DNA of 25,169 bases, taken from positions 1 through 25,169 of the IMG/VR virus record IMGVR_UViG_3300010885_040599. One strand, 5' to 3'. Each line of letters opens with the position of its first letter. The stretch's first letter is position 1. Source of the DNA: a virus. This document shows, piece by piece, positions 1,879 through 18,852 of the stretch. The translations under genes were made by a program, and so were the position numbers. The notes beneath the pieces are model-generated. The model made no database searches, was not told where the DNA came from, and worked only from the letters and a program-made list of their open reading frames with translations.

Positions 1879-2352
1879 TTATGCTTTCTGTTTCTTGGGA
1901 TTGAAGTGCTCCACGATTACGCGTTGCCATTCCCGCGCTTGCGTGCCGCGGCCAAAGAAATCGTTGTAGTTCAGCTTGAGCTGATGCACGATGTCAGCCA
2001 GCACGTCGAGGCCGTAGACGCCTTCCATAGACTCTACAGGTTTACCGTCCGGGCCAAAGATTGTGCTTTTGTGGTCACGAAAGTCACTTTTGATAACACT
2101 CGTGTGCGCCTTGACCATGTCCTTGTGCAGGCCAAGCTCAAGGAACGCTTTTGGCTTCATGATCGTGTGGCCGTCGCAGATATCTGCTACGGCAAGAATG
2201 ACATTGGCCGGGATGTTTTCCCAGCGGGTCATGTCTTTCTTTTTAGCCTTTGGCTTTGCGGCTTTTGGGTTTGATTTTGCTGGCTTTGCTTTTGCCTTGG
2301 CTTTGGGCTTTCCCTTTACGATTGCCTTTTTGGCCACTTTCTTTTTTGCCAT
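1879..2352 (-). CDS. Lys/Ala-rich-tailed protein, possibly nucleic-acid binding
   Basis: The protein has 157 residues from the ATG at 2352. Residues 1-41 are almost only Lys, Ala, Pro, Val and Gly (MAKKKVAKKAIVKGKPKAKA and on), like tails of bacterial histone-H1-like or HU-tail proteins. Residues 42-157 form a compact-looking domain (WENIPANVILAVADI, DGKPVESMEGVYGLDVLADI, REWQRVIVEHF) that I do not recognise. Binding to DNA or RNA through the tail is an inference from charge alone. The start codon lies inside the upstream gene: the first 110 nt also encode the lysine-rich end of the protein at 2243-2746 in another frame. The SD is poor (AGAAAG). Confidence 0.7.
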   Translation of the reverse strand: MAKKKVAKKAIVKGKPKAKAKAKPAKSNPKAAKPKAKKKDMTRWENIPANVILAVADICDGHTIMKPKAFLELGLHKDMVKAHTSVIKSDFRDHKSTIFGPDGKPVESMEGVYGLDVLADIVHQLKLNYNDFFGRGTQAREWQRVIVEHFNPKKQKA

Positions 2353-2746
2353 TGGTGTCTTTCTTTGTGAGCACGGGTTTGGGAGTAGGAAGGAGGATGT
2401 CATTAATAAACTGCCGCCGAGCTTTATAGTTCTCGGCTCTAGATGCTGCGTTTAATTTCTCACTATCAACCCAGCGCCACGCCATCACGTACGCGCCGTA
2501 ATCTTTGTCCGTCGTAGAGACAGCCGCGTTGCCGTCTACTTCCAGAAAGCTTTCTTCGGCATCAATTTGCGCCGCGGCCACGTAGTTGTCGTGAAACTCA
2601 CTGTGGTGTTCTGCCGCAGCCATCTGGATCTTGACCGCAAGCCGGCTGTTCTTTTTGATATCTTGCAGATCTTCGTACTGGATGGCTACCCAACAGACGG
2701 TGTCAAACGGCCGGATGTCCTTATCAAAATGCACGTTCTTGCTCAT
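2243..2746 (-). CDS. Hypothetical protein with Lys-rich C-terminal tail
   Basis: The protein has 167 residues. Residues 1-125 look globular and acidic to neutral (FDTVCWVAIQYEDLQDIKKN, DKDYGAYVMAWRWVDSEKL) and I recognise no family. The last about 40 residues are Lys/Gly/Ser-rich (KKDTNGKKESGQKGNRKGKA and on), a disordered basic tail. This tail is encoded in the same DNA as the basic N-terminus of the next gene, in a different frame, over 110 nt. The gene begins 2 nt after the stop of the 'RQGD' protein gene, with a short GGA-type SD. It could bind nucleic acid through the tail. Confidence 0.65.
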   Translation of the reverse strand: MSKNVHFDKDIRPFDTVCWVAIQYEDLQDIKKNSRLAVKIQMAAAEHHSEFHDNYVAAAQIDAEESFLEVDGNAAVSTTDKDYGAYVMAWRWVDSEKLNAASRAENYKARRQFINDILLPTPKPVLTKKDTNGKKESGQKGNRKGKAQSQGKSKASKIKPKSRKAKG

Positions 2747-2748
2747 GT

Positions 2749-3363
2749 TCAGTCCAGTACGCGGGTAACGGTGTTGTCTCGGGCCACGGTGCGCTGATAT
2801 GTCACGCGGTACGAACCCGGGGGGAGAACCCAGTCTCCGTGCTCAGGATGCGTCACGGTGTTTGTTTCTGTCAAGGCGAAGATCGGACCAGCGAGCAAAA
2901 GCAGCGAAAGCGCGTCAACGCTAGCGATCTTGTTGGCGTCGGTGCCGTCCTTACGTGCTGCCCACTCAGCCGAACGCAACTGCTGCCGCAGGTCAGGTTC
3001 ATTCGCAGAAATGCCGTACTGCGCCGCCAGCTGAATAAACATCTCAGCGCTGCCGCCTTCGCAGGGCTCGTAGGCAGTGACGCCACGGCCATGCTCAAGA
3101 CAATGCCGGCTGCCCTTGGTGTTACCCGGGGCAAGCTGCATTGGGTACGACGGCGTGGCCTTCTTGAACAGGAACGGCGCTGATGTAACGTCCTCGATCA
3201 GCTGGATATACACGTCACCCTGCCGAACCGCGTCGCCGATACTGGCGGCTTCAGGGAAGTTCTGGGGATCATCGTTCTTGATCTTCTCGACCTGCGCCTG
3301 TGCCTCACGGAGCTGGCGAACGGCGGCGTGGTTATCAATATCAAATTTAGTAGCAGTAGTCAT
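2749..3363 (-). CDS. 'RQGD' protein, likely partner of the DUF6745 protein
   Basis: The protein has 204 residues. I chose the ATG at 3363 because GGAG lies 7 nt before it; a longer frame reaches back into the neighbouring gene and is unlikely. After a helical N-terminus it shows RQGDVYIQLIED (about 47-58), QLAPGNTKGSRHCLEHG (about 76-92) and a C-terminal THPEHGDWVLPPGSYRVTYQ block. From memory, this order (RQGD, LAPG..KGSRH, HPEHG..LPPG.Y.V.YQR) marks a small conserved family of unknown function, often encoded beside DUF6745 proteins in bacteria and phages. It lies directly downstream of such a gene here. No enzymatic function is known to me. Confidence 0.7.
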   Translation of the reverse strand: MTTATKFDIDNHAAVRQLREAQAQVEKIKNDDPQNFPEAASIGDAVRQGDVYIQLIEDVTSAPFLFKKATPSYPMQLAPGNTKGSRHCLEHGRGVTAYEPCEGGSAEMFIQLAAQYGISANEPDLRQQLRSAEWAARKDGTDANKIASVDALSLLLLAGPIFALTETNTVTHPEHGDWVLPPGSYRVTYQRTVARDNTVTRVLD

Positions 3364-3397: not shown

Positions 3398-4873
3398 TCA
3401 AGAGGCGCCCAACAACCGCATGGGCTTTGAAGCATAGGAAACAAGCGCGCGGGTGTCAGAATCAACGTCATCGTTAGCCATCCATGCTTGCGCGTCTCGG
3501 CACGTTTGAATTGTGCTTGGGACACTCAAGAAATATCGCCGGCCAGTAGACCTGCAGAACAAGACCATACGGTTCTGTTGCGGACGGTTCCAGCGCACGT
3601 CATCTCTACTAGACTGTGACCGCGGTGCGCCGACCAACATCTCGATAGTGTTATCAATATCGTTCGTGCGCCGGTCGAGCACCGGGCAGTCAGCCTCGAC
3701 GATGAACTTATCCCAGCCAAAGCTTTCAATAGCCAACCGGCGAGTTTCCTCATTGTTAATACGCAGGATGTGCGCGGTCGTGAGCTTGTTTGGCGTATCT
3801 ACAATGTATCTACCGCCTTCTTCCATGTAGTGCCCGTCGTTAAACCAGAGCCGGGTACCGTCAGTCCACGACACAGCCGGCCCTGTCGTGCTATGCAGAT
3901 TACCTGCTTCGTTCGTGTGCATAGTCGGGCGGTCGGCCAGAATGATGCAGGACGACTGGAACGCTGCAAACGCGGTGCAGTGATGGAAGACTTCGTGCTC
4001 CCACGTCAGCTCGGGATCGTTGATGTGCAAGATACGCGCCAGAATCTCAGCGTCGATAGCCTTGGGTACATTGCCCAGAAATACGGCGTCTCCGCTACGC
4101 GCTACTGCGTTGTTTGCGTTTCGCACGACGTCCTCGACATCGATAGCCTTGCGCAGCTCGCCGATAGCGCTGAGCGTAATGTTGTTGTCCCAGAGAGCAG
4201 AGCTAGAAATCTCGCCAAGTTTTTTGCTCGTTAATGCGACTGTGGTCGGTTGCTCTTTGCCATCCCAACTGCGCCGCAATTCAGTCTTGTTTTCTAGCGC
4301 ATTGTGGTCATTTAAAAGCGACGCTACCATCCGCATAACGTTGTCTAGCGAGTTTGTGTTGTACGCCACCGCGGCGTTCTCACTATCAGAGCTAAATCGT
4401 GAACGAAACTGCGTACTGATTAGGCTAGTGGTCTGAGCTACCAATCGTTCTTGCGTAAGGTATTCAGCCCGGATAGCGCGCAGCCACGTACGACCGAATT
4501 CGCTATTGGCGTTGTGCCACCAGCGCCGATTGCCGCCGTTCCATTTGGCTAGCGGATCTCGGCGCAGGTCTTTCAGAAACCCCGGGTCGATGCCCAGCAA
4601 GCCGCAGATCTCTGTAGCCGTCTTCTTGTTCATGCGGCCACGCGTAACTGTGACGGCAAGCATGAACGCCACAGGCGATGCTACGGTAAGAAATTTGACT
4701 TCTTTGAGCTTGTGCTTGGCGCTGCGGTGGGCGCCAATACCGGTCTTATACGCTGCTTGGATATACGTCTTAGCCTTTTCGATATTCGGCACGCCAGCGT
4801 AAACATTGTTTTCCCAGCGTGCAAACGTCTCTTGAACAATTGCGCTATGCGCTTTGGATATCTTGGACTTCAT
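3398..4873 (-). CDS. DUF6745-like protein
   Basis: The protein has 491 residues. The middle to C-terminal part carries the pattern I associate with DUF6745: DRPTMHTNEAGNLHSTTGPA (from residue 314), VSWTDGTRLWFNDGHYM, then an NNEETRRLAIESFGWDKFI block (about 373-391) and a long variable end. The N-terminal half (1-200) is basic and helical with no motif I know. The molecular function of the family is unknown. The start overlaps the stop of the upstream gene as ATGA. The next gene downstream, across a 34 nt gap, encodes the 'RQGD' protein that commonly goes with DUF6745, so the two probably work as a pair. Confidence 0.75.
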   Translation of the reverse strand: MKSKISKAHSAIVQETFARWENNVYAGVPNIEKAKTYIQAAYKTGIGAHRSAKHKLKEVKFLTVASPVAFMLAVTVTRGRMNKKTATEICGLLGIDPGFLKDLRRDPLAKWNGGNRRWWHNANSEFGRTWLRAIRAEYLTQERLVAQTTSLISTQFRSRFSSDSENAAVAYNTNSLDNVMRMVASLLNDHNALENKTELRRSWDGKEQPTTVALTSKKLGEISSSALWDNNITLSAIGELRKAIDVEDVVRNANNAVARSGDAVFLGNVPKAIDAEILARILHINDPELTWEHEVFHHCTAFAAFQSSCIILADRPTMHTNEAGNLHSTTGPAVSWTDGTRLWFNDGHYMEEGGRYIVDTPNKLTTAHILRINNEETRRLAIESFGWDKFIVEADCPVLDRRTNDIDNTIEMLVGAPRSQSSRDDVRWNRPQQNRMVLFCRSTGRRYFLSVPSTIQTCRDAQAWMANDDVDSDTRALVSYASKPMRLLGAS

Positions 4874-5217
4874 GTGGTTTCTTGGTTAGTGACTTCGGAA
4901 TGCGGCATGTAACAAGGGTGCTGATAGAGCACCTTGCCGCCGCGGGATGTCTGAATTTTGATAATTCTATGGTCGAGAATATGTGCGCCGCCCATTGCGC
5001 GTTTGTTGTACAGCACAATTGGGACTTTATATTGCCCGCCACTGCGGCTCACGTAGCCGCACATGTCCATACTGTCTCCCCAATCTTGGCCGGCTTCTGG
5101 GCCTGTGATGTTGCCGTACCGGAACTTGATGCGCTTGTTATACAACCGACATGCTTCCAGTATGTTGGCAACTTCTGCCGGCGTCTCATCGTGATACCAT
5201 GTCCCGTTGAGTAGCAA
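4870..5217 (-). CDS. Conserved phage-type hypothetical protein, 115 aa
   Basis: The best start is a TTG at 5217, with AGGGGG about 7 nt upstream; no ATG with an SD is available nearby. The sequence TPAEVANILEACRLYNKRIK, then FRYGNITGPEAGQDWGDS, then GYVSRSGGQYKVPIVLYNKR and GGAHILDHRIIKI resembles a small beta-rich family often found in phages and plasmids (pattern 'R+R.YGD..TG..W....+.G.+.RS.G...P+L'). No function is known to me. It overlaps the alpha-CTD fusion gene upstream by 32 nt and the DUF6745 gene by 4 nt. Confidence 0.7.
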   Translation of the reverse strand: MLLNGTWYHDETPAEVANILEACRLYNKRIKFRYGNITGPEAGQDWGDSMDMCGYVSRSGGQYKVPIVLYNKRAMGGAHILDHRIIKIQTSRGGKVLYQHPCYMPHSEVTNQETT

Positions 5218-5896
5218 GTGTTTCCCCCTTGAGAGTTAAACCGTGCCGCGCTAGCGCTTCGCGAATTTGAGTTAAACTTGTAAGCCCAAACCCGCGGCAT
5301 TCCATAAGATCAGCCGCACTAAGCGCTGTTATGCTAGCGACAGATGTAGCGCCAAGGTTAAACAATGCTTTTTGTGCTCGGGGGCCTAAGCCCAGCCAGT
5401 AAACATGCTTTTGCAGAACGTCTGTCTCTTGCGCTGGTGGCGGCGCAGTGGGTCTTGGGTCGACAAAGCCGTAGCTAATTGACGCGCCCGTGGTGTTGAT
5501 TTCAAACGTCTCAAAGAGATCGCAGTCGCCTAGCCAGTAATCATGGATTGGCAGGATCTCGACAAAGTCATCGCCGCCTACCAGTTCCCGGCTCATTCCA
5601 TACCAGTCATCAAACTCGCCGACATTCGGGTCACAGCCCTCGGCGTATATCACGCGATTAGTGTTGCCGTCTTCTGTAAGCAAGCGCGGCTCACCGTTGC
5701 TCATGAGGTAGACGCCCTGATCATGTACGAATAAGAGCGCCGGGCCGCGGGGCGTTCTGTTAGTGATTGGCGGCAAGCCTGCTGCTGCGCACTCTTCGTC
5801 CGTCATGTTCTCGTAACCCATGTCGAACTCAGCTGCAGCCATAGCGTGCTCAATGAGCGGCTTCAGCTCCGACGTCTTGAACCTGCAGATTCCCAT
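5186..5896 (-). CDS. DUF3085-like domain fused to RNA polymerase alpha-CTD-like domain
   Basis: The protein has 236 residues. Residues about 4-125 fit DUF3085 as I recall it: FKTSELKPLIEHAM, GPALLFVHDQGVYLMSNGEP, RVIYAEGCDPNVGEFDDW and VGGDDFVEILPI. A Pro-rich linker (145-157) leads to residues 162-226, which match the RNA polymerase alpha C-terminal domain (two helix-hairpin-helix units): VYWLGLGPRAQKALFNLG, TSVASITALSAADLMECRGF, GLTSLTQIREALARHGLTLK. Aligned by eye to E. coli alpha, R265 (R173), G296 (G204) and S299 (S207) are kept, while N268 is Lys and K298 is Thr. The domain could bind DNA or contact transcription factors. Start ATG at 5896, with AAAGGGA upstream. The fusion and its position in a phage are unusual. 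Confidence 0.8.
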   Translation of the reverse strand: MGICRFKTSELKPLIEHAMAAAEFDMGYENMTDEECAAAGLPPITNRTPRGPALLFVHDQGVYLMSNGEPRLLTEDGNTNRVIYAEGCDPNVGEFDDWYGMSRELVGGDDFVEILPIHDYWLGDCDLFETFEINTTGASISYGFVDPRPTAPPPAQETDVLQKHVYWLGLGPRAQKALFNLGATSVASITALSAADLMECRGFGLTSLTQIREALARHGLTLKGETLATQRDMVSR

Positions 5897-16769: not shown

Positions 16770-16940
16770 TTACTTTCTGGTTTTTTCTTTGATGGTTGCC
16801 GCGGTTACCGCAAACAGGCTACCGAGCACGTACGACAGGCCTTTCAGCCCTTCTACAAATACTTGCCCAGTGTAGTTTACGCTATCCTCGACCCATTGAA
16901 ATTCCCAGTTGTTGTTATCGTCATTGTTATAGTGGTTCAT
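16770..16940 (-). CDS. Small hypothetical protein, 56 aa
   Basis: I chose the ATG at 16940 (MNHYNNDDNNNWEFQWVEDS), whose codon overlaps the ATG of the divergent terminase gene (CATG at 16938-16941). AGG lies about 8 nt upstream. A GTG at 16982 would add a hydrophobic N-terminus (GIFVALSALLGLIM), making a signal-anchored version possible. The C-terminal half is hydrophobic to amphipathic (GLSYVLGSLFAVTAATIKEK). Function unknown. Confidence 0.5.
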   Translation of the reverse strand: MNHYNNDDNNNWEFQWVEDSVNYTGQVFVEGLKGLSYVLGSLFAVTAATIKEKTRK

Positions 16941-18852
16941 GATCAAACCTAATAAAGCTGATAAGGCGACGAATATACCCACAGCGGGTATACGGTCGCT
17001 TATGGATGACCTACTGTCTATCGACGTTACTGATCAAGCGTCGGTGCATGCCAGAGCTGCGGTACTCAAAGAGCTAGCGGGGCGGCACGCGTTCCCGTCC
17101 CTTGAGCCTTTGTTACCGCTCGTTCTGAACCTCAACGGTAAGCCTTACACCATAAAAGATCACTTCGCTTTTTCCCCCCTTTTTAGGGTATTAACACCCA
17201 AGAATCAGGTGTGGTGTACGGGCCGTCAGGTATCGAAGTCAACATCGCTTGCGGCGCATGGTGTTGTATTTTCTAACGCGGTGCCATTCTTTAAAACACT
17301 GTATATCACTCCTCGGTTTGAGCAGGTTCGAAGGTTTAGTAACAACTACGTTCGTCCGTTCGTTGACCTGTCTCCAATCAAATCGCAGTGGAGCGGTACG
17401 AGTACGGAGAATTCTGTATTGCAGCGTTCGTTCAAGAACAACTCGATGATGTTGTTCAGCTTTGCGCTGCTCGATGCTGATAGAGTCCGCGGTGTGTCTG
17501 CTGACCGCGTGTGCATCGACGAAGTTCAGGACATGGACCCAGACCATGTACCTATCATTCAAGAAACAATGTCGTATAGTCGTTGGGGGACCAGCTATTA
17601 CACGGGGACGCCAAAAACTTTAGACAACTTAATTTACGGATTATACAAACGCTCCTCGCAGGCTGAGTGGTTTATACCGTGTGAGTCTTGCAAGCACTGG
17701 AACATTCCAGCGCTGGAGCATGATCTTGACGCCATGATCGGTGACTACAACATTCACATCAGCGAGAAACAACCGGGCACGGTCTGTGCGAAATGCCGCA
17801 AACCAGTTAACCCTAGGCACGGGCGCTGGGTACACAGATTCCCCGAGCGCCGTTGGCAATTTGCTGGTTATCACGTTCCGCAGATTATTCTGCCGCTGCA
17901 TTTTGCCGACCCGGAAAAGTGGTCGACTTTGTTATTAAAACGGGAGGGCTATGGAAACATGACCCAAGCCCAGTTCTATAACGAAGTCATGGGCGAAAGC
18001 GTCGACACCGGGCAAAAGCTCATCAGCGAAACAGATTTGAAGGCTGCGTGTTTACTTGACTGGGAAAACAAGAAAGAACCTGAGCCGGCGTGTTTCAAAA
18101 ACTTAAGCGACTACAAACATCGCATACTGGCGATTGACTGGGGCGGCGGCGGTGAAGCAGGTATCAGCTTTACCGTATTGTCTGTCATGGGCTTTCGACC
18201 AGACGGCACAATTGATGTTATCTGGGCCAAACGTTTGCTCATTGGCGGCGACCATCTTGCGGAAGCCGTCGAGTGCATGAAGTGGTCCAACTTGTTCAAG
18301 TGCGACTTCGTAGCCCATGACTATACCGGCGCCGGCACCGTGCGTGAGACAGTTATGGTTCAAGCCGGGTTTAACCTTGACCGTGTAATGGCCATGCGGT
18401 TAGTTCGCTCGGCCGCGCAGGACTTGTTGGTGTACAAGCCGCCGACCGAGATTAACCACAGAGCGCACTACAGTCTTGATAAGACCAGATCGCTTTTGTA
18501 TACGTGCCAAGCTATCAAGCTGAAGCAGGTCCGGTTTTTCCAGTACGATCGTATCTCGCAGGAAATGCCGGGCCTGATCTCTGACTTCTTGGCGCTGGTC
18601 GAAAACAAGGCCGACTCACGCACGAGTAGTGATATCTATACCATTACCCGGAATGTGCTTCTGACCGACGACTTTGCGCAGGCCGTGAATCTGGGCTGCG
18701 CTGCCCTCTGGCATATCAACGACGCGTGGCCCAACTTCGCCGCTATTGCTGGCGTTGCCCGAATAACCGAACGGCAAGCTGCGGCAGAACGCATTGATGA
18801 CGACGATTGGGCTGACGACGCCATCGGCAACAATTTCTTTGGCGGTTACTAG
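16939..18852 (+). CDS. terL: Phage terminase large subunit
   Basis: The protein has 637 residues and would package DNA into the capsid: an ATPase motor plus a cutting nuclease. The P-loop-like CTGRQVSKST (93-102, K100), Walker B RVCIDEVQDMD (190-200, D194/E195) and a YYTGTP coupling motif (220-225) are present. A zinc-ribbon insertion has C248, C251, C283 and C286. The RNase-H-fold nuclease shows D400 (ILAIDWGG), D461 (VAHDYTGAG) and D577/D578 (LLTDDFAQA), so all acidic residues appear kept. The annotated ATG has no SD; M22 (17002) is an alternative. It is the only plus-strand gene. No small subunit is recognisable nearby. The zinc ribbon suggests a GpA-like branch, with low certainty. Confidence 0.93.
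   Translation: MIKPNKADKATNIPTAGIRSLMDDLLSIDVTDQASVHARAAVLKELAGRHAFPSLEPLLPLVLNLNGKPYTIKDHFAFSPLFRVLTPKNQVWCTGRQVSKSTSLAAHGVVFSNAVPFFKTLYITPRFEQVRRFSNNYVRPFVDLSPIKSQWSGTSTENSVLQRSFKNNSMMLFSFALLDADRVRGVSADRVCIDEVQDMDPDHVPIIQETMSYSRWGTSYYTGTPKTLDNLIYGLYKRSSQAEWFIPCESCKHWNIPALEHDLDAMIGDYNIHISEKQPGTVCAKCRKPVNPRHGRWVHRFPERRWQFAGYHVPQIILPLHFADPEKWSTLLLKREGYGNMTQAQFYNEVMGESVDTGQKLISETDLKAACLLDWENKKEPEPACFKNLSDYKHRILAIDWGGGGEAGISFTVLSVMGFRPDGTIDVIWAKRLLIGGDHLAEAVECMKWSNLFKCDFVAHDYTGAGTVRETVMVQAGFNLDRVMAMRLVRSAAQDLLVYKPPTEINHRAHYSLDKTRSLLYTCQAIKLKQVRFFQYDRISQEMPGLISDFLALVENKADSRTSSDIYTITRNVLLTDDFAQAVNLGCAALWHINDAWPNFAAIAGVARITERQAAAERIDDDDWADDAIGNNFFGGY
16974..16992. promoter_or_regulatory. Inverted repeat TATACCC-N5-GGGTATA
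   Basis: A perfect 7-bp inverted repeat lies inside the first codons of terL if translation starts at 16939, or just before the alternative ATG at 17002. The core GTATACCCG is also present at 16749-16757 on the plus strand and at 16993-16985 on the minus strand. It may be an operator near the divergent start, but the evidence is only the repeated word. Confidence 0.35.

Follow-up and report, generated by a model that had tools for sequence, protein, structure and literature searches.

A 110-nt same-strand gene overlap with lysine-rich tails in both reading frames in an uncultivated phage

Overlaps in which the 3' end of one gene covers the 5' end of the next gene on the same strand can arise through the extension of either gene, and their existence needs no selection (PMC3887535). 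Overprinted frames of viruses are typified by a restricted phylogenetic range, an atypical codon usage and a disorder-prone composition (PMC8227390, PMC6195259), and the ancestral frame of such a pair is expected to lie closer to the codon usage of the genome than the novel one (PMC8227390). The locus described here resembles the long phase-1 class of terminal same-strand overlaps (PMC3887535) in its layout, with the proviso that the phase numbering of that paper may not be the one used here; it differs in that both shared tails are strongly basic and in a length that is unusual for its surroundings, where neighboring genes mostly overlap by a few nucleotides. As in overprinted de novo viral frames, the N-terminal tail of the downstream protein combines restricted range, atypical codon usage and disorder-prone composition, the differences being that an N-terminal extension of an existing protein, and not a complete protein, would be new and that both products share the Lys bias. 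Histone H1-like Lys/Ala/Pro repeat tails such as that of the chlamydial protein Hc2 (PMC2848022) are likewise of Lys-rich low complexity and vary in length through in-frame insertions and deletions; here, a tail of 30-43 residues is carried on an unrelated core and the likeness is compositional.

Two adjacent genes and their shared nucleotides

The stretch of DNA analysed, referred to below as the window, is the viral record IMGVR_UViG_3300010885_040599 (25,169 bases). Since relatives of its genes lie on contigs of up to about 205 kb, it is probably a fragment of a large-phage genome. The two genes of interest, both of them open over the coordinates given in Table 1, share nucleotides of the same strand in different frames, the 3' end of the upstream gene doubling as the 5' end of the downstream gene, and the same holds for three relatives. 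Twelve of the last 36 codons of the upstream gene (NGKKESGQKGNRKGKAQSQGKSKASKIKPKSRKAKG) and 15 of the first 36 codons of the downstream gene specify Lys, which bears out the preliminary description of the locus as a 110-nt overlap with Lys-rich tails in both frames. Nearby lie a conserved gene (2749-3363) common to about 20 viral contigs of up to 205 kb, an adjoining gene for a DUF6745-domain protein (3398-4873, minus strand) and a gene in which a DUF3085 domain precedes an RNA polymerase alpha C-terminal-like domain (5186-5896, minus strand), an odd pairing for a phage gene.

Table 1. Features of the window discussed in the text
Feature	Coordinates	Strand	Remarks
Downstream gene	1879..2352	-	157 aa; Lys/Ala/Pro-rich N-terminal tail (residues 1-40), conserved core from residue 41
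Internal ATG (M41)	2230..2232	-	Matches the start of many distant homologues
Upstream gene	2243..2746	-	167 aa; folded-type body (about residues 1-120), then Lys-rich C-terminal tail
TAA stop of upstream gene	2243..2245	-	Downstream frame reads GCT AAA here; 10 nt ahead of the M41 ATG in 4/4 phages
Putative dual-coding overlap	2243..2352	-	110 nt; downstream frame shifted +1 from upstream frame; basic tails in both
Invariant 18-nt block GTAAAGGGAAAGCCCAAA	2302..2319	-	VKGKPK in the downstream frame; same in 4/4 phages
A AAA AAG heptamer	2341..2347	-	Downstream frame, just after the long start; within a stretch invariant in 4/4 phages
Purine block AAAGAAAG	2359..2366	-	6 nt ahead of the long start; identical in 4/4 phages; weak Shine-Dalgarno match
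Terminase large subunit gene	16939-18852

Three close relatives carry the two genes side by side: L003 (3300042556_001707), L004 (3300010885_027199) and L005 (3300027777_001718). Both frames are open in all three, with overlaps of 101, 80 and 119 nt, respectively, and this retention of both frames despite differing overlap lengths supports the earlier proposal of dual coding; no close homologue with a broken frame was found among the three. The four lengths, 110 nt in the window included, are all congruent to 2 modulo 3, from which it follows that the low-complexity stretch has gained and lost whole codons. Across the four phages, net charge ranges from +11 to +14 in the upstream tails and from +13 to +17 in the downstream tails, and the downstream frame retains the pattern MAKKKxAKKA[IV]VKGKPK. 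A sequencing-error frameshift splitting a single gene was ruled out, given that the two-frame layout recurs in four independent contigs and that the genes lie apart in distant relatives. The body of the upstream protein, whose gene lies at 4523-5005 in L003, is 96% identical among L003-L005 and about 65-70% identical to that of the window, a wider divergence than that of the downstream core, which is about 85% identical to the window's; the discrepancy suggests gene exchange.

The heptamer that follows the long start raises the possibility of recoding, as a -1 slip at this site would presumably lead into the upstream frame, where it would make a short basic peptide or tune downstream expression. 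The surrounding stretch, GCAAAAAAGAAA, is invariant in all four phages; MAKKK starts, however, are common and yield the A AAA AAG heptamer on their own, and we regard recoding as very improbable.

Substitutions, chance expectation and putative translation of the two frames

Between L003 and L004, 6 of 17 amino acids are changed in the upstream tail, with no synonymous substitution, as opposed to 5 of 108 in the body, with 22 synonymous substitutions (Fisher P 8e-4); between L003 and L005, the replaced residues number 7 of 17 in the tail and 4 of 108 in the body (Fisher P 6e-5). The tail and core of the downstream protein show 2/16 and 3/59 changed residues (P 0.29). All of these comparisons draw on four related sequences and few changes. 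Between the window and L003, the fraction of changes that are synonymous in the downstream frame is 0.67 vs 0.21 expected (P 0.014 under random placement of the observed changes), an excess that reaches significance in this pair and in none of the other four computed. Synonymous change is also lower in the overlap than in the core (2/31 vs 28/101, P 0.014), a difference that is confounded by codon class and hints at constraint from both frames. The overall pattern suggests that the downstream frame is now the more constrained of the two, and that the upstream tail keeps its charge and openness rather than its sequence.

Conserved open frames in four phages, together with this substitution pattern, would be compatible with translation of both shared tails, and on the strength of the latter the downstream frame within the overlap is most likely translated. 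Were the downstream gene instead to start at M41, by reinitiation 10 nt beyond the upstream TAA, the downstream frame of the overlap would go untranslated and there would be no dual coding. M41 is conserved in 4/4 phages and corresponds to the start of many distant homologues, the spacing between TAA and ATG fits translational coupling, the Shine-Dalgarno match at the long start is poor, and the codon usage of the downstream tail is atypical, all of which would suit such a start. The sole coding frame, that of the upstream gene, would then be the one showing 0-1 synonymous changes and many replacements, and the reading leaves aside the retained MAKKKxAKKA[IV]VKGKPK pattern and a start codon held at the same position even though it is ATG in the window and GTG in L003-L005. 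A later start of the downstream gene, which the preliminary description had named as a result that would count against it, is thus disfavored by the substitutions and finds some support in the conservation of M41 and the weakness of both Shine-Dalgarno matches; we consider it unlikely.

For an estimate of chance expectation, the codons of the downstream tail were redrawn from the phage's own codon usage with the amino acids fixed, and the upstream frame was scored. In these samples the upstream frame was open for a median of 12 codons and for at least 36 codons with a probability of about 0.06; when open, it was roughly neutral (-1, as compared with +13 observed), the observed net charge being reached in 0 of about 1200 open samples. 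The other three phages gave the same outcome. Reverse resampling of the upstream tail left the downstream frame open in 90% of cases with a charge of 17 +/- 1.7 (18 observed), a consequence of the phase, in which an upstream AAR followed by A yields the downstream codon ARA; given a basic upstream tail, this phase makes a basic downstream tail almost inevitable. When the tail's own codons were shuffled, both openness (P 0.36-0.46) and charge (P 0.10) were ordinary, so that the unusual feature lies in the choice of A-ending codons and not in codon order. A-ending codons account for 49 of the 67 codons ahead of an A-starting codon and for 22 of the 63 elsewhere (20% and 16%, respectively, in bulk genes), and no T precedes the stop at sites ahead of A-starting codons; this bias is suggestive rather than proof, since the amino-acid mix differs between the two codon classes.

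Whether the upstream tail is more than a passenger can be weighed on these results. It is conceivable, if doubtful, that the downstream tail alone is functional and that the upstream gene simply reads on to the first NNT-AA stop, its basicity being a by-product of A-rich DNA. That the upstream tail varies almost as the downstream frame permits (0 synonymous changes and 6-7/17 residues replaced in L003 vs L004/L005), and that shuffled codons give ordinary openness and charge, would be expected of such a passive tail. Yet the phage's codon usage predicts early closure and neutrality rather than +13, A-ending codons cluster precisely where the third base sets upstream Lys vs Glu or a stop, T is lacking at such sites ahead of the stop, and the codon usage of the upstream frame is typical. 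Equally doubtful, if conceivable, is selection that acts on both frames at once in favor of disordered polybasic tails, whereby synonymous choices (A rather than G or T ahead of A-starting codons) would keep the upstream frame open and positive and two proteins would share a nucleic-acid-binding tail cassette. The selection for basic tails that had been proposed at the outset holds up in part: charge is kept in both frames, but the upstream tail changes far faster than the body (6-7/17 vs 4-5/108); the downstream tail is conserved to much the same degree as its core, but its basicity comes near-automatically with that of the upstream tail. For the downstream tail, selection for basicity is plausible.

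Distribution, codon usage and starts of the downstream gene

Homologues of the downstream core were found on about two dozen viral contigs. Outside the clade formed by the four phages, most of these proteins have their first residue at or close to the equivalent of M41; in several cases the start is preceded by a strong Shine-Dalgarno sequence and the gene overlaps a different upstream neighbor by a short stretch. Other N-termini occur in a few divergent homologues, and none of the distant homologues on these contigs has a long Lys-rich N-terminus. The tail is thus confined to four contigs while the core is more widespread. Distant homologues of the upstream protein (L018, L020-L022) end in a C-terminus without a basic tail and have different 3' neighbors. 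Whole-record searches located the upstream gene in the overlap clade (the L005 contig) and on three contigs without the downstream gene, and nowhere else; they turned up neither a second copy nor a distant genome that carries both genes. Because the distant homologues of either protein are devoid of the tails, the overlap is clade-specific, and by these searches the junction and both tails are specific to one clade of large uncultivated phages. A tblastn search of both proteins and their distant relatives against 50,697 phage records gave 0 annotated relatives, and no relatives were matched in prokaryote genomes. L031, which was picked up by its DNA pattern, encodes an unrelated Lys-rich protein.

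In all four phages, the overlapping stretch has a codon usage typical of the phage when read in the upstream frame (z -1.0 to +0.3) and an atypical one when read in the downstream frame (z -2.3 to -3.8), the four comparisons being those of sequences related to each other and hence not independent. By the published criterion (PMC8227390), this asymmetry designates the upstream tail as ancestral and the downstream extension as the newcomer, and the distant downstream homologues that start near M41 agree with the extension being newer. Phylogenetically restricted and less genome-like in its codon usage than the upstream frame, the downstream N-terminus looks like an overprinted newcomer. Alternatively, both tails could have arisen at once from an A-rich, low-complexity insertion, which would mimic the asymmetry in codon usage.

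M41, which was referred to as M42 in the preliminary description and whose ATG occupies 2232-2230, is probably the ancestral start of the downstream gene. It may still be used through reinitiation, in which case a short form could coexist with the long form. Shine-Dalgarno strength does not arbitrate between the two starts, as both matches are weak: neither M41 nor the long start (-0.9 to -1.5 kcal/mol) has a strong sequence. An additional in-frame ATG at 2403, upstream of the long start in the downstream frame, had been overlooked; it has no counterpart in L003-L005, where the frames open just one codon ahead of the GTG. The region of the long start bears some resemblance to that of M41 (2350-2366 vs 2232-2242, minus strand; L003:4890-4910 and 5005-5025), the two regions of L003 sharing the pattern AAAGAAAG..TGACCCG.TGG, perhaps from an old local duplication. 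The long start as a diverged duplicate of the M41 region was not retained, local alignments giving weak support, with P values of 0.01, 0.01, 0.09 and 0.04 for regions picked post hoc.

Proposed history and possible roles of the tails

The reading to which we give somewhat more credence than doubt is that of a clade-specific terminal same-strand overlap, both frames of which are translated and in which the downstream N-terminus was overprinted on an AAR-rich upstream tail. The upstream gene would have been newly placed ahead of the downstream gene, and its Lys-rich disordered C-terminal tail, either already present or acquired, would have ended just short of the M41 start. The downstream gene would then have gained an earlier ATG or GTG within this tail, its N-terminus being overprinted in the +1 frame; since AAR-rich DNA reads as Lys in shifted frames, the new extension would have been basic from birth. 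The extension would later have become the more constrained of the two, leaving the upstream tail loosely held, that is, open and basic but free in sequence.

The two tails probably serve as flexible, polybasic segments, and that of the downstream protein may plausibly raise the affinity of its core for nucleic acid; binding of nucleic acid by the tails is suggested by their composition. The downstream protein has no significant match in Pfam, NCBIfam, PHROG, PDB sequences or Foldseek and, with the caveat of a low-confidence model, no known DNA-binding family among these resources resembles it in sequence or fold. The upstream protein weakly matches phrog_6739 (E 1e-4), a family of unknown function. 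AlphaFold, run on four-row alignments, gave poor models (mean pLDDT 52 and 43), and in these low-confidence models both tails are unstructured, as is much else.

The overlap is a clear, conserved instance of a type already known and not a new mechanism, tidy but modest, and it leaves general views unchanged. Its value lies in an order of events that can be read from a clade-specific junction, a putative ancestral start that survives as an internal Met and a more recent frame marked by its codon usage. It further illustrates that AAR-rich DNA can give a neighboring gene a basic tail free of cost, because Lys codons survive frame shifts, and that N-terminal extensions can be hidden from start calling in compact phage genomes.
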